A stretch of DNA of 64,000 bases, taken from Bifidobacterium bifidum ATCC 29521 = JCM 1255 = DSM 20456. Lineage in GTDB: Bacteria; Actinomycetota; Actinomycetes; Actinomycetales; Bifidobacteriaceae. The notes beneath the pieces were generated by a model. It saw only the letters and a list, made by a program, of their open reading frames with translations, made no database searches and had not been told where the DNA came from. The position numbers were made by a program, and so were the translations under genes. Where the stretch lies: NCBI RefSeq assembly GCF_001025135.1, contig NZ_AP012323.1:1426001-1490000 (forward strand). Direction: 5' to 3'. Position 1 is the stretch's first letter. The number at the start of each line of letters is the position of its first letter. Shown in pieces: positions 16,988-26,084 of the stretch.

Positions 16988-17539
16988 TTACCTCTGTCGC
17001 TTCAATATACGCTTGGCGATGGCGTTCGCGATGCCCTGCACGATCTGGACCAGCACGATCATGATGATCACGGCCGTCCAGGTCACCGTCTGGTCGAATT
17101 TCTGATAACCGTCCAGTCGGTCTGGTGGCCGGCGATGTCGTATGCATGGGACCAGGGACTCATCGCGTCTCCTCCTTGTCTGCCGCGGACGGCTGCGGCG
17201 ATGGCGTCCTCGTAGCCTATGGTGTCCGCCGCCGTGCCGAAGTCGATGACATCGCTGGAACGTGACAGCTCCCCCGAGAAAGTCGCGCACCAGCGCATCG
17301 TCGCCCGAGAACTCGTAGGTGATCGAGCCGATGGCCGAACCGGATACCGTGTCGATGAACCGCTTGGTCACCGCCTGATGGGGTGCCGCGAACACGTTGT
17401 ACACATCTCCGCGCTCCACGACCCGGCCGGCGCTCATCACAGCGACCACGATGAGGGCGATGACGATGTTGCGCACGGTATGGTTGACGCGCACCGGCTC
17501 ATTGTCGGGAGAGCCCGCCTGTTGTGTTGCTGCTGTCAT
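16988..17539 (-). pseudogene. metQNI methionine ABC transporter remnant
   Basis: A collapsed operon. The first ~34 codons look like a MetQ/NlpA start (MTAATQQAGSPDNEPVRV with a hydrophobic stretch). They join at a VAVM sequence to the C-terminal part of the ATPase MetN (GRVVERGDVYNVFAAPHQ, then ITYEFSGDDALVRDFLG). One extra G in a five-G run (about 17271-17275) shifts frame. The following frame continues MetN (ELSRSSDVIDFGTAADTIG) and then a possible MetI start, MSPWSHAYDIAGHQTDW, behind a good AAGGAGG. This joins out of frame to a MetI C terminus (GYQKFDQTVTWTAVIIM). Most of the ATPase and permease are gone, so it cannot make a transporter. Confidence 0.8.
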
Positions 17540-17691
17540 GTTCGTTCCCCCCTCTGATTGGTTGACAACGCCCACCATACGGCAGCGACGGCGGCAGTCG
17601 CGGGGCGGGTCTGATAACGCGTTACGGGATGCCATCCAGCGCTGTTCATACACTGGGGATGACCGAATTTCGTATCGCGGAGGTTGCGTAC

Positions 17692-18543
17692 ATGGCATCG
17701 GACGACATCATGACAGCGGGCGCCGGAGGCGCGACGGCCACCGCGCGAGCCGACATCAAGGCGGCGTTCTTCGACATCGACGGCACGCTGACGAGTTTCG
17801 TGACGCATGTGATCCCGCAGTCCTCCATCGACGCGCTGCACGAGCTGCAGGATCGCGGGGTGAAGGTGTTCATCTGCTCCGGTCGGGCACCGTCGCACAT
17901 GACCGTCGTGCTCGACATGATGCCGGTGCACTTCGACGGCATCATCGCGCTGAACGGGCAGTACTGCTTCGACGACCACGGGCTCCTGGAGAAGGAGTCG
18001 CTGCTGCCCGAGGACATCGTCACCATCACCCGCTGGCTTGACGAGCACCCCGACGTGGTGGCGAACTACTGCGAAAAGGATTACGTCTACTTCAACCAGA
18101 TCACCGACGCGATGCGGGCCACGTGGCGCCAACTCGGCAAGACCGCACCGACCGTGAACATCGACGATCCGCACGAGAGGGCGCTGAAGTATGAGACGTT
18201 CCAGATCAGCCCGTACATCAGCTTTGAAGATGAAGCGAAGCTGTCCGCCATGTGTCGCAATGTCAGAGGCGTGCGCTGGCATCCGGACTTCACCGACCTG
18301 ATTCCCGCCGACGGCGGCAAACCCGAGGGAATGAAGCGGTTCATGCGGCATTACGGCTGGACGCGCGAGCAGACCATCGCGTTCGGAGACGGCGGCAACG
18401 ACGCCGACATGCTCGCCTTCGCCGGCATCGGCGTGGCGATGGGCAATGCGACCGAACCGGCGAAGGCCGCGGCCGACTACATCACCGATGACGTCGACCA
18501 CGACGGCATCATGAACGCGCTCAAGCACTTCAACGTCCTGTAG
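17692..18543 (+). CDS. Cof-type HAD-superfamily phosphatase
   Basis: Type IIB haloacid dehalogenase-like hydrolase, likely a phosphatase for sugar phosphates or a cofactor. Motif I is FFDIDGTLTSF, motif II FICSGRAP, and motif III/IV comes as KPEGMKRF with FGDGGNDADMLAFAGIGVAMGNA. At 283 aa it is normal. The ATG at 17692 follows GGAGG by 8 nt; the frame stays open further upstream without a better ribosome site. It converges on ppi, with a terminator between them. Confidence 0.9.
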   Translation: MASDDIMTAGAGGATATARADIKAAFFDIDGTLTSFVTHVIPQSSIDALHELQDRGVKVFICSGRAPSHMTVVLDMMPVHFDGIIALNGQYCFDDHGLLEKESLLPEDIVTITRWLDEHPDVVANYCEKDYVYFNQITDAMRATWRQLGKTAPTVNIDDPHERALKYETFQISPYISFEDEAKLSAMCRNVRGVRWHPDFTDLIPADGGKPEGMKRFMRHYGWTREQTIAFGDGGNDADMLAFAGIGVAMGNATEPAKAAADYITDDVDHDGIMNALKHFNVL

Positions 18544-18550
18544 CCCCCTC

Positions 18551-18593
18551 CCCTCCCACTGGCGGGAGGTGGCGCGCAGCGCCGGAGGGTGGT
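18551..18593 (+). repeat. Interspersed 43-bp GC-rich repeat, copy 1
   Basis: CCTCCCACTGGCGGGAGG followed by GGCGC-N2-GCGCC and GGAGGGTGG, directly after the HAD gene. Related copies occur at 55666-55707 (inverted) and 56286-56328, so this is a REP-like extragenic family. Confidence 0.75.
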
Positions 18594-18613
18594 AACAGAC
18601 CCGGCACGCATAC

Positions 18614-18649
18614 GAAGAGCCCTGACCCGACGAGGGTTCAGGGCTCTTC
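18614..18649. terminator. Bidirectional terminator between HAD gene and ppi
   Basis: Perfect 12-bp inverted repeat GAAGAGCCCTGA/TCAGGGCTCTTC around a 12-nt spacer that can extend the stem, between two convergent genes. Confidence 0.85.
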
Positions 18650-18688
18650 CATGTGTATCGGAGCGTCGGCTTCGAATTGCCGCCGCGC

Positions 18689-19228
18689 TTACTTCACCAC
18701 TTCGATGGACATGATGCCGGCAGGTTCGAGCGGCGCGTCGGAACGGTCGGTCGGCACGGCCTCAAGCTTGTCGACCACGGCCTTGGACTCGTCGTCGGCG
18801 ACCTCGCCGAAGATCGTGTGGTGTCCGTCGAGCCACGGGGTCGGCACGGTGGTGATGAAGAACTGGGAGCCGTTGGTGCCATGCGCCTTGCCGTCGCGGC
18901 CGCGACGCAGGCCGGCGTTCGCCATGGCCAGCAGATACGGCCGGTCGAACGTGAGTTCGGGGACGATCTCGTCGTCGAAGTCGTAGCCGGGGCCACCGGT
19001 GCCATTGCCCAGCGGGCAGCCGCCCTGGATCATGAAGTCCTTGATGATGCGGTGGAAGGTCAGGCCGTTGTAGAACGGCTCATGGGACGGCTGGCCGGTG
19101 AACGGGTCCGTCCATTCCTTCTCGCCGGTCGCCAGACCGAGGAAGTTCTTCACGGTCACGGGCGTCTGATCGTCGAACAGGTTGATGGTGATGTCACCTT
19201 CGGAGGTGCGCATGATGATGGTAGTCAT
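18689..19228 (-). CDS. ppi: Cyclophilin-type peptidyl-prolyl isomerase
   Basis: Cytosolic cyclophilin, catalysing proline cis-trans isomerisation. It has the family core [36 protein letters not shown], and HTIFGEV. The length of 179 aa is usual. The start ATG (19228) gives [17 protein letters not shown]; the upstream ribosome site is weak. The first 26 bp of this coding region are repeated in near-identical form at 20350 and 23117. The 33 bp just upstream of its start codon are repeated at 20376, so the gene lies at one end of the accessory block. Confidence 0.95.
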
Positions 19229-19261
19229 GGTCCCAAGTGTCTCATGGGCTTGAGACCGGGC
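19203..19261 (-). repeat. Boundary repeat A: ppi 5' core (26 bp) plus 33-bp end sequence
   Basis: Positions 19203-19228 are the first 26 bp of ppi. Positions 19229-19261 hold a 33-bp segment with the hairpin GTCTCA/TGAGAC. The whole 59 bp recurs at 20350-20408 with one substitution. The 26-bp core alone recurs at 23117-23142 with two substitutions. Confidence 0.85.
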
Positions 19262-19296
19262 GGTGATGCCAATCAAGCGGAATGTATGTGAGTGGC

Positions 19297-19337
19297 TTGT
19301 GACGTGTGTTTATATTGCATATAATTTTCCTAATTAT
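19297..19337 (+). promoter_or_regulatory. Promoter and operator of the toxin-antitoxin pair
   Basis: TTGTGA (19297-19302), a 17-bp spacer and TATAAT (19320-19325), about 45 bp upstream of the antitoxin. The inverted repeat ATAATT-N5-AATTAT (19321-19337) overlaps the -10 box, as expected for autorepression by the antitoxin. Confidence 0.6.
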
Positions 19338-19369
19338 TATGTAACCTATTGAGGGGATGGGAGGCTGCT

Positions 19370-19666
19370 ATGGCTGTGAAGGAACGGACGACCATTGCAT
19401 TGGATCCGGAGGTCAAGCGCGAGGCGACGGACGTGCTTGAGCGGATGGGTTTGAGCTTGAGCTCGTTCACGGAGATCTGCCTGCGGCAGGCGGTCCGTGA
19501 CAAGGGCATGCCGTTCACGCCGAGTCTGAGGCCGGTCCGATCCGACGGGTATCCGGTTCCTCCGGCTCACGACGCGTATCGTTTCGAGCGTTCGAAAAGC
19601 ACGGGCAATATCGTGCTGCCTCAGGAGTGGGACGATCCGGCGGATGACATCTACGATCATGCGTGA
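19370..19666 (+). CDS. RelB/DinJ-family antitoxin
   Basis: 98-aa antitoxin with the ribbon-helix-helix N terminus MAVKERTTIALDPEVKRE, followed by ATDVLERMGLSLSSFTEICLRQAVRDKGMPF, which matches RelB/DinJ proteins. The C-terminal half (AYRFERSKSTGN to DDIYDHA) would bind the toxin. The ATG at 19370 has GGGAGG upstream. It overlaps the toxin start by 8 nt. Likely binds its own promoter at 19297-19337. It is the first cargo gene of the upstream cassette. Confidence 0.85.
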   Translation: MAVKERTTIALDPEVKREATDVLERMGLSLSSFTEICLRQAVRDKGMPFTPSLRPVRSDGYPVPPAHDAYRFERSKSTGNIVLPQEWDDPADDIYDHA

Positions 19667-20018
19667 GCCGGAAGTGTACGACGTGTGGCTGATGCGCGTC
19701 GAGTTCCCCGATCATCCCGGCGTGGGCAAGGTCAGACCCGTCATCGTCACCAGGGTCGAGGAGGATCGGGTCTCGGGCATCGTCGTCAAGGTGACCAGCG
19801 TGACGACATGGAACGGTCCGGGTGACGTTCCGTTGCTTGACTGGCGTCAGGAGGGTCTGTACAAGCCATCCGTGGCGAGATGCTCGCAGCGTTTCTGGTT
19901 CGGCAATGGTGACTTGCTGAAGTATTTCGGCAGGCTGTCGTTGCGTGACGCGAACGACCTTGATGCCGGTCTTGATGCTACGGGCGACGTCCCGCCCCAC
20001 CGCCAGTCGCATTCATGA
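19659..20018 (+). CDS. MazF/PemK-like toxin
   Basis: 119-aa protein of the MazF/PemK type: EVYDVWLMRVEFPDHPGVGKVRPVIVT and VVKVTSVTTW follow the usual beta-barrel opening, and LYKPSVARCSQRFWF comes near the centre. Members cleave mRNA as ribosome-independent interferases or inhibit gyrase; which applies cannot be told. The start is taken at the ATG that overlaps the antitoxin stop (ATGCGTGA); an alternative ATG lies 15 nt upstream at 19644. Pairing a PemK-like toxin with a DinJ-like antitoxin is a mixed combination. Confidence 0.75.
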   Translation: MREPEVYDVWLMRVEFPDHPGVGKVRPVIVTRVEEDRVSGIVVKVTSVTTWNGPGDVPLLDWRQEGLYKPSVARCSQRFWFGNGDLLKYFGRLSLRDANDLDAGLDATGDVPPHRQSHS

Positions 20019-20192
20019 TGATGGCGGGGCCAACGGTTTTTCTCCCTGGATATTATCTGCATGTCGATGTTTGTGTTCGATGAACGAAATGGATTGTTGG
20101 TTGTCGGCGTATTCTGCGCAACGCGTTTTCCGACGGTGTCGTCACGGGCGTGATGCCGCGCAATGCGAGGATGGTGGGTGATTTTGGGGACT

Positions 20193-20408
20193 GGCGAAGA
20201 TGCCAGGCTCCGGCGGGGACGGTGGAGTGCTCCCGGATTATTTTCGGGTGCCTGTAGGCGCCTCGTGGAGAACGAGGCTGATCGGTAGGTTTCCCGAAAT
20301 CGGAAAACCTTGGAATAGAGCCGAAAACGACCACGTGCGATTATCATGCGAGGTGCGCATGATGATGGCAGTCATGGTCCCAAGTGTCTCATGGGCTTGA
20401 GACCGGGC
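20193..20408 (-). repeat. Boundary repeat B: 157-bp end, ppi core and 33-bp end
   Basis: Three parts in order. Positions 20193-20349 closely match 22961-23116 (about 50 bp nearest the core is almost identical). Positions 20350-20375 are the ppi 5' core. Positions 20376-20408 match the 33 bp after core A. On the minus strand the core starts an open frame MTAIIMRTSHDNRTWSF that fuses the ppi start codons to unrelated sequence. Confidence 0.85.
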
Positions 20409-20679
20409 ATTGCTGTTTGATTGCGGGGAATGGCGCAGCGGGCCCGTGGACTGGCCACGGCCGGTAGCCGGGCCGCCGAGCTGCAACGTGGAACGTCATA
20501 CGAATTGGTTCACTATGATCAGCGCACCGGCAGCGACAGCCATGAGTGGCTCCTGCTCTGTATTTTGATGCTCCTATACATTGTCAAGCGTTTGGACCCG
20601 TTGTTTGAGTTCGGGCAGGTTCCGTGCTCCGCGTTCGACTTCGTTGATGCGGCTTGACGGCACGGTCGGCGCCTCGCCG
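20409..20679. other. Spacer without recognisable genes
   Basis: No gene with family features could be identified here. Short open frames exist but lack ribosome sites or conserved motifs. It lies between boundary repeat B and the IS3 remnant. Confidence 0.5.
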
Positions 20680-20850
20680 ACCTGCTGTTGAAGAAGGAGC
20701 TCGTGTAACCGGAACCGCTACACCACGATCGAGCGACTGAGGCGCGACCTCAACGACTACGTGTGGTAATTCGACGACCAGCGGCTCCGTTCCATCCTCG
20801 GATACCGGAGTGCGAAGGAATTCATCGAACGAGGATCGTCCTCTAAGGAC
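20680..20850 (+). pseudogene. IS3-family transposase (OrfB) C-terminal remnant
   Basis: The stretch reads LLLKKELV, a one-base shift, then NRYTTIERLRRDLNDYVW, a stop codon, then FDDQRLRSILGYRSAKEF. This matches the end of IS3-type integrase-core transposases (LKKELVYxNRYTT...YxxWFNxxRxHxxLGYxSPxEF). A single inserted base near 20706-20708 and the in-frame TAA at about 20767 disable it. No terminal inverted repeats or full element were seen. Confidence 0.75.
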
Positions 20851-21035
20851 CTATCCAACACGCTGTTGCCAATCCGATTGGCGTCATGGAGTTATATTTT
20901 TTCTGTGATTTAGGTATGTAATGTAGCCATAATCATAAGTTGTGAACGTCTTACTCGCGTATGTTCGTAGACACTGAAAGTCAACGGACATACTTATCCC
21001 AGTTCCTACGTGAACCAACTCCCGGGGAGATCAAC

Positions 21036-22124
21036 ATGACTCGATTCCGCAATACATACACAACCCTCACAACCTTCGTGTCGGCCGCTGTTCTCCTTAT
21101 CTCGACCACTGTGCCGGCATCCGCATCGCCCATGGCAAGTGATCCATTGTCTTCGTCCACCACAACAGCCGTGCGTGCACAGGTAACAGCCCTTGGTGCA
21201 AATCGTACCTACACTTACGTTCCGACCAATAACACAAGCGTCGGCGACCCCATCGTCACAGCCTACTGGACTCCAGAACGCATGAAGAGTGCCATTCCCA
21301 CTGATACACCAACAAGCACGACCGAGGTAAACCGACAGATTGACGAGCTCGAACAACCGGCTCTGGCAGACGAACCAGTTACTGACGGATCGTCCCCCGT
21401 GACGGCAATCTTGAACGCAATCACGCCACAGGCTGTGACGCCAGTCACGAATTTCTCAAAGACCAACGGAAAAGTTTTCTTCCGCAATCAGACCGACGGC
21501 AAGGATTACGTATGCTCTGGAGCCTCCGTCAATAGCCGTTCCAAACGTCTGGTCGTTACTGCTGGCCACTGTGTCCATGGCGGCCCAGGAAAAGATTGGC
21601 ATACCAATTGGATATTCGCACCGGGTTACAGCAACGGTGCCACGTATGGCACTTACCAAGCTGCCACGCTCCGAACGCTCAATGACTGGATCAACTATGG
21701 TGAATCCGGGCGAGGATTCAATTCAGACGTTGCCTTTGTTACCACCTATAGTGGCAGCACTTCCGGGGATACTGTTGTAAACGCGGTTGGTGGTCACGGG
21801 TTTAGGTGGGGCGGAGGTACTGGTTTCGACGTCAGTATTTTCGGCTATCCAACGAACCTCAGCGGAGGCCAAAGCATGTGGGCCTGCTGGGGCTCTAGTC
21901 AAACTGGTTGGAATGGCCTTTACAAGTTCAACCATATTACTGGTTGCGATTTCGGCGGTGGTTCGTCCGGTGGACCTTGGCTCGACGAATACAGCAATAC
22001 CACTGGTCTCGGATATGTACGCAGCGTAACCTCGAACGGCCCCGCAGACAATTCCTATCTTCGAGGCCCATACTTCGACAGCCGCGTCAACGACTTGTTC
22101 GTTGCAGCAAACAAGGACTGGTGA
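21036..22124 (+). CDS. Secreted trypsin-like serine protease (S1)
   Basis: 362-aa exported endopeptidase. An N-terminal signal peptide (TLTTFVSAAVLLISTTVPASASP) is followed by a propeptide-like stretch of about 110 residues. The chymotrypsin fold has His178 (VVTAGHCVHG), Asp231 (GFNSDVAFV) and Ser311 (FGGGSSGGPW). The start ATG has GGGGAGA upstream. Base composition is more A+T-rich than neighbouring core genes. The lipoprotein gene follows after 9 bp. It resembles secreted trypsin-like proteins of actinobacteria; physiological substrate is unknown, and activation of the propeptide is only inferred. Confidence 0.88.
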   Translation: MTRFRNTYTTLTTFVSAAVLLISTTVPASASPMASDPLSSSTTTAVRAQVTALGANRTYTYVPTNNTSVGDPIVTAYWTPERMKSAIPTDTPTSTTEVNRQIDELEQPALADEPVTDGSSPVTAILNAITPQAVTPVTNFSKTNGKVFFRNQTDGKDYVCSGASVNSRSKRLVVTAGHCVHGGPGKDWHTNWIFAPGYSNGATYGTYQAATLRTLNDWINYGESGRGFNSDVAFVTTYSGSTSGDTVVNAVGGHGFRWGGGTGFDVSIFGYPTNLSGGQSMWACWGSSQTGWNGLYKFNHITGCDFGGGSSGGPWLDEYSNTTGLGYVRSVTSNGPADNSYLRGPYFDSRVNDLFVAANKDW

Positions 22125-22133
22125 AACAACATC

Positions 22134-22589
22134 ATGGCCAGTTGGATTCGCTTCCGCAGCCGTTTTGTTGCTGCGCTTCTGGTATTTGCTTTGACCAGTA
22201 TCACGGTAATGGGATGCGCAACTAACGGGAGCGAATCCAGCCCCAGCTCACCAGGTACAGATGCAGGATACGATTCCGCAGCAGAGGCACCGGAGCAATC
22301 CTCCAACGACGTACAGCAACGAGCCGACCTCAGCAACGAACATATATCCTCATGGAACCGATACGAAGTGGTCTCGGACACCTCCGTGCGCATTTTCTTC
22401 TCCATGGGAAATCCCAAATGTCATGGTGTACGGGCCACCGTCGACGAAGACTCCTCCGCAGTGCTAATCACCCTCTATGAGGGAACACTCCCCAACGCAC
22501 CAACCGAATGCGCCGCGATCGCAGTCAATGCATCCCTTCTGCTTACCACACGCAATCCCATCGGAACCCGTTCCGTAATTACCGGATAA
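22134..22589 (+). CDS. Small secreted lipoprotein partner of the protease
   Basis: 151-aa predicted lipoprotein: a hydrophobic signal with lipobox ITVMGC, then a Ser/Glu-rich linker, then a folded C-terminal part containing NPKCHGVRATV, EGTLPNAPTECAAIAV and LLLTTRNPIGTR. That C-terminal pattern (two Cys, EGT-P-AP-xC) is seen in other actinobacterial secreted lipoproteins of unknown function. It starts 9 bp after the protease stop, so it is probably co-transcribed. It could tether or inhibit the protease, but nothing in the sequence proves this. Confidence 0.75.
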   Translation: MASWIRFRSRFVAALLVFALTSITVMGCATNGSESSPSSPGTDAGYDSAAEAPEQSSNDVQQRADLSNEHISSWNRYEVVSDTSVRIFFSMGNPKCHGVRATVDEDSSAVLITLYEGTLPNAPTECAAIAVNASLLLTTRNPIGTRSVITG

Positions 22590-22960
22590 ATGGTCCAGAC
22601 CTTTGGAACTAAACACGTAATTCCACCGGCGTCGCCATACACATGCTTGAGACCGGTAAATTAGTGCAGCCCAAACAACCACGTAGATCGTTCGGGCATT
22701 AATCGAAATCAAACAACGGTATGTCGCCGCCGAACCGTCCGTGATCCTCGCGGTTTCTTTCATCGAACCGGCGTGCCGGACACCATCCACGAACGGCCAC
22801 GTCGAGCAGATGGTTCTGCGCGACGGAGACATTGAAGGCCTCGTGCCCGGCGTGCCTGTTGTCCGACACGGAGACGTACTGCTGGGCGAATGCTTTTGGG
22901 CATCGCCCATGCTGAACATCATGAAACCACAAGGCGGATCGTTCTTTTTCCGTGCCGGTC
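22590..22960. other. Gene-poor tail of the protease cassette
   Basis: No supported gene. Open frames on both strands (for example minus 22699-23208, running into the repeat) carry no recognisable domain. A 12-bp match to the 33-bp end (GCTTGAGACCGG) lies at about 22645-22656. Confidence 0.45.
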
Positions 22961-23142
22961 GGCGAAGACGTTGAGCGCCGGCAGGACGGTGGAATGTCAC
23001 CGGATTGTTCTCGCGTGCCTGTAGATGCCTCGGCGAAAACGAGGCTGATCGGCAGGCCTCCCAAAAAACGAAAACCTTGGAATAAAGCCGAAAACGACCA
23101 CGTGCGATTATCATGCGAGGTGCGCATGATGATCGTACTCAT
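22961..23142 (-). repeat. Boundary repeat C: 156-bp end and ppi core
   Basis: Closely related to 20193-20375. The final 26 bp (23117-23142) are a third copy of the ppi 5' core (two substitutions from copy A), giving a minus-strand frame MSTIIMRTSHDNRTWSF. Unlike copies A and B, no 33-bp end follows it. Confidence 0.85.
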
Positions 23143-23753
23143 AGCGGTCAAGTCTTGCAGAACGCCCCGACGCGGCCGGCAGCATCGCCGCGCCCGTAAG
23201 CGGGGCACGTCACCGTCAGCGCGCGTACACCGTGGGAGAGCCGCTCAGACGCGACATCGCCGACTGGGGGATGTCATGGACACGCCCCAGAACGGCGTCC
23301 AACGTCGACGAGACGGCATGCGGCGCCCGGCGATCGCTGCAATCCGTCCAGGAGGGTCGTTCCATCGGGGACGTCATGGCCGTCCGACCATCCGCGCCGG
23401 CCTCCATGTCATACTCCCGGCGACCGTATCGCCGAGAGTCGCATTGCTGTTGCGAACCACCCGCGCCAAAGCCGGGCGACGTCTACGCTGAAGGAAGAAC
23501 ATGCCTGCCTCGATCCCGTATGGGCGCCGTCCCTCTGATGTCCGGCGCCGGTCGATATTCATCGTGTCACCATAGGCGATCCCGCCAATCGATGACACTA
23601 TCGATTACACACCGGATCGTGCCGTCATGCCCTCGTCCGAAAGGGTGATTTTCCGCACGCCCGTCATCCCCGGGGCCGTCCGGCATTGCAAAGGTCACGC
23701 GGAACCGGCAGCGGACGGGCGGAAGACTTAGACGATCGCTGGAACGAACCCGG
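23143..23753. other. 611-bp gap between the accessory block and rel
   Basis: No gene, RNA or repeat could be supported. The sequence immediately beyond core C (23143 on) may be the original upstream region of ppi, because it lacks the cassette end seen beyond cores A and B. Confidence 0.45.
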
Positions 23754-26084
23754 CTACTGCATCTTGCGCAGGCGTGGCACGGCGGAATCCTTCGCGCCGG
23801 TGACGCGGTACACGTCGAACACGCCGTCGATCTTGCGCACGGCAGCGAGCAGACGGTTCAGATGCTGCGGGTCGGCCATCTCGAAGCTGAACTGGCTGAT
23901 CGCTACGCGATCGAAGCCGGTCGCCTGGGAGCCGGACAGGATGTTCACGCCGTGGTCGGCCAGCACACGGGTCACATCGGACAGCAGATGCTGGCGGTCC
24001 AGCGCCTCGACCTGAATCCTGACCATGAACAGGCCCTTGGTGCTGGTCCATGCCACATCCACGACGCGCTCGGGCTGACGTCGCTGCAGGTCGATCATGT
24101 TCTGACAGTCGGCGCGGTGCACCGACACGCCCTGATTGCGCGTGATGAAGCCGACGATCCTGTCGCCGGGAACCGGCATGCAGCAGCGCGCCAGCTTGAC
24201 CCACACATCGTCTACGCCCTTGACGGACACGCCGAGGGAGCTGGTCTTCTTCTTGGCGTTCTCGACCGCGCGCAGCGGCAGCGCCTCCTGCTCAACCTCC
24301 TCATCGACCTCGTCGCTGCCCGCGTCCTTGACCAGATGCGCGATGACGTTCTGCGTGGAGATCTGCCCGTCGCCGATCGCCGCGAACACGGCGTCGGGGT
24401 TGGGGAAATTCAGCTCGTCGGCGACGCCGACCAGCGCCTGGGTGGTCAGTAGCGTGCCGATCGGCAGGTTACGCTTGCGCATCGCGCGGGTCAGCTCGTC
24501 GCGGCCCTCCTCGATGGCCTCGGTGCGGCGCTCCTTGGAGAACCACTGGCGGATCTTGTTGCGGGCCTTGGGGCTCTTGACGAAGCTCAGCCAGTCGCGG
24601 GAGGGGCCGGCGTTGTCGGATTTCGAGGTCAGCACCTCGACGGTGTCGCCGTTCTCAAGCTTGGTGTCGAGCGGCACCAGACGGCCGTTGACGCGCGCGC
24701 CCATCGTCCTGTGCCCGACTTCGGTATGCACGGCGTAGGCGAAGTCCACCGGCGTGGCACTGGCCGGCAGCGAGACGATCTTGCCCTTCGGGGTGAACAC
24801 GTAGACCTCGGCCGCGCCCAGATCCTCCTTGAGCGAGCCAAGGAACTCGTTCGAGTCCGGGGTCTCGCTGGTCCAATCGGCGAGCTGCTGGATCCATTTG
24901 AGGTTGTCGGCCTCGCTCAGCTCCTGGTTGTCGTCGGAACCGCGTTTGAGATCGGATTTGTCGGGCGTGCTCAGGGCGCGGCCCGCCTGCCCGTTCTCCT
25001 TGTACTTCCAGTGCGCGGCGATGCCGAATTCCGCGCGCCGGTGCATGTCCCAGGTGCGGATCTGGATCTCGACCGGCTTGCCGCCCGGCCCCACGACCGT
25101 CGTGTGCAACGACTGGTACATGTTGAGCTTGGGCATGGCGATGTAGTCCTTGAAGCGCCCGGGCACGGGGCTCCAACGCGCGTGCACGGCGCCGAGCGCC
25201 GCATAGCAGTCGCGGATCGTGTCGACGATGATGCGCACGCCGACCAGATCGTAGATGTTGGCGAAATCATGGCCCCGCACGATCATCTTCTGATAGATCG
25301 AGAAGTAGTCCTTCGGGCGGCCGGTCACGTACGCCTTGATGTGCTGCGCGTCAAGATCCTCGTTGATCTCGGCGAGGATCTGCGCGAGATACACGTCGCG
25401 CTGGCCGGCACGCCGCGCGACCAGCACCACGATCTCGTTGTAGATCTTCGGGTACAGCACCTTGAAGCTCAGTTCCTCAAGCTCGGTCTTGATGGCGTTC
25501 ATACCGAGCCTGTTGGCGAGCGGCGCGTACACGTCAAGGGTTTCGCGCGCCTTCTTCTGGGCGCTGGACGACTTGACGTACCGCCATGTGCGGGCATTGT
25601 GGACACGGTCGGACAACTTGACGACGAGCACGCGCACGTCGCGGCTCATCGCGACGACCATCTTGCGGATGGTCTCGGCCTGAGCGGAATCGCCGTATTC
25701 CATCTTGGAGAGCTTGGTGACACCGTCCACCAGACCGGTCACCGTGTCGCCGAATTCCGCGCGGCACTCGTCCAGCGTGTAGTCGGTGTCCTCGACGGTG
25801 TCGTGCAGCAGACCGGCGGCGACCACCAGCGGCCCCATGCCCAGGTCGGCGAGAATCTGCGCCCCCGCAAGCGGGTGGATGATGTACGGCTCGCCGGATT
25901 TGCGGCGCTGTGAGGAATGCTGGATGACCGCCCGACGATAGGCACGCTCCAGAATGCTCAGATCCTCGTCGGGGTGATGGTTCCTGCACGCTTGCATGAT
26001 CGGCAGCAGCGGGTTCAGCGGGTCGTCGCTGATCTCGCAGCCGAGCATGCGGGCGGCATTATGCTCGGCTTCATCGTTGGCCAT
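23754..26084 (-). CDS. rel: Bifunctional (p)ppGpp synthetase/hydrolase (RelA/SpoT)
   Basis: Master of the stringent response. The N-terminal HD hydrolase domain shows LLHDTVEDTDYTL and VKLSDRVHNARTW. The synthetase domain carries RPKDYFSIYQKM, DLVGVRIIVDTIRDCYAALG and RFKDYIAMPKLNMYQSLHT. Next are the TGS domain (VYVFTPKGKIVSLPA), a conserved helical part (LARCCMPVPGDRIVGFI) and a C-terminal ACT domain. At 776 aa it matches the long actinobacterial form with both hydrolase and synthetase intact. It precedes dut in a shared orientation, 149 bp apart. Confidence 0.97.
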   Translation of the reverse strand: MANDEAEHNAARMLGCEISDDPLNPLLPIMQACRNHHPDEDLSILERAYRRAVIQHSSQRRKSGEPYIIHPLAGAQILADLGMGPLVVAAGLLHDTVEDTDYTLDECRAEFGDTVTGLVDGVTKLSKMEYGDSAQAETIRKMVVAMSRDVRVLVVKLSDRVHNARTWRYVKSSSAQKKARETLDVYAPLANRLGMNAIKTELEELSFKVLYPKIYNEIVVLVARRAGQRDVYLAQILAEINEDLDAQHIKAYVTGRPKDYFSIYQKMIVRGHDFANIYDLVGVRIIVDTIRDCYAALGAVHARWSPVPGRFKDYIAMPKLNMYQSLHTTVVGPGGKPVEIQIRTWDMHRRAEFGIAAHWKYKENGQAGRALSTPDKSDLKRGSDDNQELSEADNLKWIQQLADWTSETPDSNEFLGSLKEDLGAAEVYVFTPKGKIVSLPASATPVDFAYAVHTEVGHRTMGARVNGRLVPLDTKLENGDTVEVLTSKSDNAGPSRDWLSFVKSPKARNKIRQWFSKERRTEAIEEGRDELTRAMRKRNLPIGTLLTTQALVGVADELNFPNPDAVFAAIGDGQISTQNVIAHLVKDAGSDEVDEEVEQEALPLRAVENAKKKTSSLGVSVKGVDDVWVKLARCCMPVPGDRIVGFITRNQGVSVHRADCQNMIDLQRRQPERVVDVAWTSTKGLFMVRIQVEALDRQHLLSDVTRVLADHGVNILSGSQATGFDRVAISQFSFEMADPQHLNRLLAAVRKIDGVFDVYRVTGAKDSAVPRLRKMQ

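Follow-up and report, generated by a model that had tools for sequence, protein, structure and literature searches.

The stretch of DNA analyzed here (the window) is a 64-kb segment of the chromosome of Bifidobacterium bifidum ATCC 29521, and its subject is an array of repeats at the start of ppi, the gene for a cyclophilin-type peptidyl-prolyl isomerase. Very probably, two integrase-less cassettes resembling cis-mobilizable elements (CIMEs) sit there in tandem within the first 26 bp of ppi, where a tyrosine integrase inserted them by site-specific recombination. The 5' end of the gene is best read as an accretion site for such cassettes and for integrative and conjugative elements (ICEs). Cassettes were apparently inserted, sometimes in tandem, at the ppi start in a number of bifidobacteria, and each seems to have supplied ppi with a fresh promoter and start codon. 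An integrase that could act in trans is encoded by related islands there and may have moved them.

The window genome (G000) is one contig of 2,211,039 bp, and array coordinates are positions in the window. The repeats that an earlier note on this DNA had described are present as claimed. The 26-bp ppi start occurs three times in the same orientation (cores A, B, and C); A differs from B at 1 of 26 positions and from C at 2 of 26. A common 33-bp segment lies past cores A and B (98% identity over 59 bp with the core, recovered by repeat finding as a 66-nt family at 94%). The segment of some 157 bp ahead of cores B and C was found as a 159-nt repeat at 86%, its last ~50 bp nearly identical. One refinement is needed: ppi is read from the minus strand, which places the array on its upstream side, between ppi and rel (23754–26084). 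Cassette 1 is 1,147 bp and cassette 2 is 2,767 bp, with both ends common to the two. Whole-genome pattern scans (core, at most 1 mismatch; 33-bp end, at most 3) found three cores and two 33-bp ends in the window genome, all of them in the array. Its features are as follows.

18689–19228, minus strand: ppi, cyclophilin-type peptidyl-prolyl isomerase, whose 5' end is the predicted integration target (Pfam Pro_isomerase, E 2.8e-44)
19203–19228, minus strand: core A, putative ppi-proximal attachment (att) site, the first 26 bp of ppi (repeats and pattern scan)
19229–19261, minus strand: right end of cassette 1, 33 bp, ppi-promoter-like (repeats, pattern scan, and promoter-box comparison)
19349–19666, plus strand: RelB/DinJ-like antitoxin, cargo of cassette 1 (Pfam RelB; NCBIfam RelB_DinJ slightly below cut-off)
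19644–20018, plus strand: PemK/MazF-like toxin, cargo of cassette 1 (Pfam; protein search of other genomes)
20233–20349, minus strand: arm b (left end) of cassette 1, about 117 bp kept across species, opening with the inverted half-site GCATGAT
20350–20375, minus strand: core B, putative internal att site between the cassettes (repeats and pattern scan)
20376–20408, minus strand: right end of cassette 2, 33 bp (repeats and pattern scan)
20961–22124, plus strand: secreted trypsin-like serine protease, cargo of cassette 2, likely start 21036 (Trypsin_2 below cut-off; PDB serine protease 3wy8, E 1.3e-25)
22134–22589, plus strand: small lipoprotein-like protein, cargo of cassette 2 (no Pfam match; lipobox-like VMGC read by eye)
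23000–23116, minus strand: arm b (left end) of cassette 2 (alignment of arms)
23117–23142, minus strand: core C, putative distal att site with the native-type ppi start ATGAGTAC (pattern scan; alignment with relatives)
23143–23175, minus strand: native-like ppi promoter, apparently stranded upstream of core C (aligned with unoccupied G046, G010, G066, and G036)

The cargo is thus what the earlier note had read: a toxin-antitoxin pair in the first cassette, a secreted protease and a lipoprotein-like open reading frame in the second. Its statement that no integrase is visible also holds; none of the genome's PF00589 matches falls inside the window, and the genome has no PF00239 match.

The comparison set comprised 112 Bifidobacterium genomes, the window genome included, and spans the genus rather than strains of the window's own species. 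ppi was recovered in 109 of the 112 (protein search, E≤1e-40); 85 ppi loci were tabulated (84 regions from other genomes plus the window), and ten further fetched regions lie outside the table. Besides ppi's own core, one or two extra cores are present in 14 of the 112 genomes (G000, G013, G014, G018, G019, G027, G029, G040, G045, G051, G059, G060, G069, and G100). This count includes G059, whose degenerate distal copy was recognized together with its arm, and leaves out G079, where the second core match is on a separate contig. Wherever they lie on ppi's contig, the extra cores are upstream of ppi in ppi's orientation; one of G029's two sits on another contig. As in the window, two extra copies occur in G014, G019, G029, G040, G060, and G069. 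The 33-bp end was found in 15 of the 112 genomes, only adjoining ppi or cores, and a reversed core used as control pattern gave no match in the 112. Three genomes with the 33-bp end (G001, G006, and G037) had no distal core in the stretches fetched. A combined BLAST query of arm, core, and 33-bp end (at most seven candidates per genome scored) matched the 112 genomes only at ppi, its upstream arrays, or G029's second contig; for G052, G097, and G101 the match was to part of the core or promoter only. At family level, 20 of 189 genomes matched, all in one of 16 genera and the same 20 as in the genus search (four to seven candidates per genome scored).

Fifteen complete small cassettes, of 1.1–8.7 kb, were delimited; another, in G029, is broken by a contig end and is not counted. 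All are flanked by core plus arm b on one side, the distal one, and core plus promoter end on the other, and the 33-bp end closes 12 of the 15. A precise empty site also exists. In G008, which has no cassette, the distance from the end of a HAD gene to ppi is 79 bp; from the HAD end to the distal core it is 79 bp in G100 and 80 bp in G013. With the 4,625 bp between its cores omitted, G100 is identical to G008 at 306 of 330 positions across the junction; for G013, minus 4,933 bp, the figure is 315 of 331 (93–95% identity in the two cases). Among related genomes, therefore, the region upstream of ppi comes in empty (G008), one-cassette (for example G100, G013, G018, G027, and G059), and multi-element versions (G000, G014, G019, G029, G040, G060, and G069), with differing cargo. 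These versions support the tandem, site-directed insertion of related elements that the earlier note had proposed.

Arm b, which follows the distal core, is conserved for about 117 bp, and then conservation stops. Seventeen copies from 13 genomes were aligned, G040's over about its first 35 bp alone; a profile from the 16 others recovers those 16, in 12 genomes, along with one degenerate copy in G029, among the fetched loci. (For the arm of cassette 2, likeness to certain cassettes of other species extends to about 290 bp from the core's outer end.) The core terminates in ATCATGC-GCACCTC, and the next seven bases in arm b are GCATGAT or close to it. Scored for this half-site, which was picked after inspecting the sequences, the 17 arm-b junctions match at 7 of 7 positions in seven cases, 5 of 7 in seven, and 4 of 7 in three; the 85 ppi genes score 2–4 of 7. 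This arrangement fits a tyrosine-recombinase core site, with inverted half-sites around a putative 7-bp overlap where identity ends.

The 33-bp end, for its part, looks like a ppi promoter. Two suitably spaced boxes, GTC and GNNA(C/A/T)T, are present in 14 of 16 element-type upstream regions, against 25 of 69 other ppi upstream regions and 0.4% of shuffled sequences (the boxes were picked after viewing the sequences). Given that likeness, insertion seems to replace the ppi promoter together with the first 26 bp of the gene, while core C retains a native-like promoter. Outside core C, the window DNA (ATGAGTAC and promoter) is similar to the ppi start of the unoccupied genomes G046, G010, G066, and G036, whereas core A has an element-type promoter and ATGACTAC. 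Since the surroundings of C are native-like and those of A of element type, core C is best read as the displaced native ppi start, and core A as the start brought in by an element.

Arm b also extends the ppi start codon as a 45-aa frame (20233–20375 and 23000–23142, minus strand), and in 11 of 16 copies (G040 left out) its stop falls at one common position; G069's second copy, which has a 1-bp insertion, is not among the 11. Synonymous changes are in weak excess in this frame (32 of 73 changes, P 0.010 without correction for the six frames; G040 and G059 not included), and one reverse frame gives P 0.021. Arm b is not claimed as coding sequence. Nor is it claimed as a structured RNA: the fold can be drawn plausibly, the shuffle control gives it no support, and an Rfam scan of positions 17000–25000 had no match up to E 1.

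Where might an integrase come from? Five islands of 29–67 kb occupy the same ppi site in four genomes (two in G014, one each in G019, G040, and G060). Four of the islands, of 42–67 kb, begin with the same core and have an open tyrosine integrase gene 0.2–1.5 kb inside. In G014, G040, and G060 the core is followed by another arm (arm c) and then by a 447-aa integrase 98–100% identical to that of G040; in G019 arm b comes next, then a 366-aa gene, then an integrase of 459 aa that shares 54% identity with the 447-aa enzyme. The catalytic R, HxxR, H, and Y can be seen in the translations. Across the 112 genomes, relatives of at least 54% identity were found only in these four islands, with no other above 44%. 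The fifth, the distal island of G014, is 29 kb and has arm c, its integrase reduced to a 48-residue fragment. Several-kb stretches are common to the four integrase-bearing islands at 90–99.8% identity; the G014 distal island has only the arm end and about 0.9 kb in common with them.

These four islands (G014 proximal, G019, G040, and G060) combine integrase with att sites, as expected of ICEs, and the distal island of G014 does not. Conjugation genes were scanned in two of them: the G060 island encodes a type IV secretion system coupling protein and TrbL, and the G019 island a VirB4/TraG-type ATPase and a topoisomerase. The G040 and G014 proximal islands are 90–98% identical to these over long stretches. 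The G060 genome also has a tail fragment (G060:C1:1358429-1358563), close to its other integrase, that is 80% identical to the G019-type enzyme; it is as if integrase and arm modules had been swapped on one ICE backbone. Other G060 island genes (L183:8438-11797 and L155:1161-4724) encode an AAA ATPase paired with a subtilase, and a large surface protein of antigen I/II type. Viral contigs held no exact core and no relative of the integrase, only one distant cyclophilin (37%); a plasmid collection gave no match for the array, and the integrases of the phage and plasmid collections all stay below 60% identity.

In the proposed scheme, the integrase would come from a related ICE that occupies this site, acting in trans or in cis, and would recombine attB with attP. 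attB would be ATCATGC-GCACCTC within ppi codons 5–9, with a weak right half-site; attP would share that left half-site and the overlap and continue with a strong right half-site, GCATGAT, leading into arm b. Landing beside ppi would be an element end that copies the gene's promoter and start codon, leaving ppi intact under a new promoter, and the old promoter with the first 26 bp would pass to the far side, as core C. Insertion of a further element into one of the core copies so produced would stack another cassette. In G019, G040, and G060 a small cassette lies directly distal to the island, an adjacency that would permit mobilization after accretion.

Integrase or resolvase (PF00589, PF00239) matches number 0 in the 15 complete small cassettes, and neither recombinase nor transfer genes were found, the latter sought through Pfam in selected open reading frames. 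Cargo was annotated with Pfam, PADLOC, and NCBIfam, likewise on selected frames, and is varied. The RelB/MazF-like pair is in G000, with the toxin also in G059 and G069. UzuA-like GIY-YIG proteins were identified by scan in G069 and G027, and the same module by DNA in G013, G051, and G100. Other cassettes encode AbiD (G019), Fic (G069), a helix-turn-helix protein with a PIN protein (G029), an AAA protein that matches McrB below cut-off (G045), or a MatE transporter with a CBM_X2 protein (G018; same DNA in G060). By annotation, 11 of the 15 have a predicted defense or toxin-antitoxin gene. (One 511-aa cassette protein, at L142:8842-10377 in G069 and in relatives, has a first part that matches an FtsZ C-terminal domain model, barely missing the cut-off, and a second part that matches UzuA/GIY-YIG.)

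Some of this cargo appears to have traveled. Of 111 other genomes, two (G059 and G069) have copies of the MazF-like toxin at 92–95% identity, each within a ppi cassette, and the other eight matching genomes reach no more than 62%; the protease has distant relatives alone, 33–34% identical, in 2 of 111 (E≤1e-30). At the DNA level, a 1.0-kb module with a 264-aa secreted protein, beside AbiD in G019, is 93.7% identical between G019 and G029, as against 81.2% for rel. Modules of G069 and G100 are 88.3% identical (rel 82.9%; 4.2 kb), and those of G027 and G100 86.4% (rel 81.3%; 4.3 kb); G013 and G027 are 84% identical along 2.6 kb of module DNA and 94% along 475 bp (rel 81%). For the toxin-antitoxin module the margin is small: 89.0% against 84.5% for G000 and G059 (0.75 kb), and 87.0% against 83.7% for G000 and G069. 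rel is a constrained gene; that modules with non-coding DNA are nevertheless more alike speaks for horizontal exchange, and for past transfer of several of them between species. In G069 a 5.2-kb unit consists of the UzuA module joined to the toxin-antitoxin module, so cassette units also fuse.

Traces of the larger islands are present in two cassettes. The 1.7-kb cassette of G069 holds island pieces (882 bp with identity as high as 93%, and 353 bp as high as 88%), as does that of G045 (about 530 and 250 bp at 78–88%, and 310 bp at 93% to the G014 distal island). The remaining cassettes match the five islands at their ends only, or in an insertion-sequence-like stretch (in G040, and a short one in window cassette 2). 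Together with the integrase fragment of G014, these pieces suggest a series from ICE to CIME. The ppi cassettes match CIMEs on the features that can be compared by sequence, with island fragments pointing to an origin by deletion from an ICE or an integrative and mobilizable element (IME) in 2 of the 15.

How recent, then, is the movement? The array might be a fossil: decayed CIMEs left behind when an old ICE was deleted, merely inherited, and no longer mobile in this lineage. The window genome has no related integrase, cassette 2 looks partly decayed (the 45-aa frame of its arm is missing the usual stop, and more than 40% of the cassette has no clear gene), and the island fragments in two cassettes, with the 48-residue remnant in G014, are what such decay would leave. 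Against simple inheritance stand the modules themselves: the toxin-antitoxin unit of G000, G059, and G069 at 87–89% against 84% for rel, the UzuA unit in five genomes, and the secreted-protein module of the G019 AbiD cassette and the G029 cassette at 93.7% against 81%. Such likeness requires past horizontal movement, though not present movement. The fossil array is a serious possibility that falls somewhat short of probable.

Several observations sit uneasily with insertion by an ICE integrase. Mobility is read from comparison between species, and no relative of the ppi-island integrase (E≤1e-25) occurs anywhere in the window genome. No relaxase was recognized among 19 island proteins scanned from selected open reading frames. 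Arm b is paired with an integrase in G019 alone, with the 366-aa gene between, and the pairing is uncertain. Both core copies are host-like in G013, G100, G027, and G051, and in G013 so are the promoters; host-like cores on both sides are unexpected from a single crossover at the overlap, unless gene conversion or local re-insertion followed. Finally, the ppi-side promoter is native-like, and not the 33-bp end, in G013 and G045; that of G013 is identical to the promoter of its empty relative.

Core copies within one genome also have lineage-specific bases in common (G014, G060, G027, G051, and G029), as if homogenized; gene conversion, or moves mainly within a lineage, are guesses at the cause.

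Might the cores instead be copies of the ppi 5' region, made by homologous duplication around unrelated foreign DNA? Their frequent likeness within a genome (G014, G060, and G027) is what concerted evolution would give. However, the same arm b in 12 genomes (13 with the G040 stub), the same 33-bp end in 15, and an integrase near the core in four already disfavor this, and a duplication has no reason to end its identity where the putative overlap ends; it is very improbable. Equally improbable is transposition with a long target-site duplication (~35–60 bp) at the ppi start. The G013 promoter and core, host-like in both copies, would suit it, but cores A and B of the window differ from core C in promoter and codons as element from native, the insertion site and orientation are the same, and no transposase common to the cassettes was seen (translations read by eye; Pfam on selected open reading frames). 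Least probable of all are integron-like cassettes with a folded single-stranded end as recombination substrate: arm b can be drawn as a four-helix fold with 96.8% of cells paired in 13 of 17 arms, but the shuffle control is not exceeded (111 of 500) and there is no covariation beyond it, most fold energies do not stand out (z from −3.8 to −0.1 for 9 of 17 arms, 1 of 9 below −2), and the integrase falls far under the integron-integrase cut-off (52 against 265 bits).

Insertion by an ICE-type tyrosine integrase has parallels. SXT/R391 ICEs insert at the 5' end of prfC in Gammaproteobacteria, where the element supplies a new 5' end and promoter. The target is again the 5' end of a housekeeping gene, but each is a single large ICE at an unrelated site, with no array of small cassettes known there. 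Integron cassettes are alike in outline (small units with common ends, in tandem array, the enzyme not on the unit); they differ in that the target here is ppi, with no IntI-type integrase and no supported attC-like fold.

The closest match is among streptococci. The portions consulted of two reports describe CIMEs as elements that keep their att sites, have lost integration and transfer genes, and are stacked with ICEs or IMEs, measuring 1.2–13 kb in Streptococcus salivarius (PMC5704250, PMC7563491). Those at fda, rpsI, and rpmG are, like the ppi cassettes (about 1–9 kb), integrase-less, att-flanked, and stacked at one gene with varied cargo; in both sets some adjoin integrase-bearing elements, and decayed intermediates are present. 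In those same portions, however, the streptococcal elements sit at 3' ends, whereas the ppi cassettes lie at the 5' end of a protein gene, whose promoter and start codon the element seemingly supplies. Unlike the streptococcal CIMEs described there, some small ppi units recur in several species, and most have no detectable island fragment. Bifidobacterial prophages, in the part of PMC6109161 consulted, integrate at dnaJ2 and other sites; insertion is likewise site-specific and into a gene, but the sites are different, and the ppi islands carry conjugation genes. A ppi or cyclophilin gene as integration site in Bifidobacterium was not met in the titles and abstract openings searched, which is no proof of novelty, and the passages seen of PMC3218068 mention neither peptidyl nor cyclophilin. 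The kind of structure, tandem accretion of ICEs and CIMEs, is thus known; neither the ppi site nor the ends nor the set of cassettes came up in that literature.

A broader idea is more speculative, and on balance unlikely: a genus-wide pool of dedicated non-autonomous defense and toxin-antitoxin cassettes, each with a captured ppi promoter and start codon, moved in trans between species by ICE integrases and collected at ppi, rewiring ppi expression at each insertion. This would be an integron-like platform built from ICE ends. Short of that, a shared insertion hot spot with searchable ends is defined in a genus of major gut symbionts and probiotics, and the ppi-site integrase might be put to use as a genetic tool for a conserved site. 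The cargo suggests one place where bifidobacteria acquire predicted anti-phage genes (UzuA-, AbiD-, Fic-, and McrB-like proteins, and toxin-antitoxin pairs). It also raises the questions of how integrase-less elements of less than 2 kb travel between species, and of what repeated promoter exchange does to a chaperone-type gene.

From core C to rel (23143–23753, ~610 bp) there are short weak matches alone in the fetched loci; in eight unoccupied relatives with rel upstream (G003, G005, G010, G034, G036, G046, G066, and G075) the gap between rel and ppi is 65–137 bp. Over window positions 17629–26084 and the tabulated loci, rel was located in 70 loci. In 17 of these it is upstream of ppi and points the way ppi does, and in the other 53 the two genes converge; ppi is thus inverted relative to rel in part of the genus.

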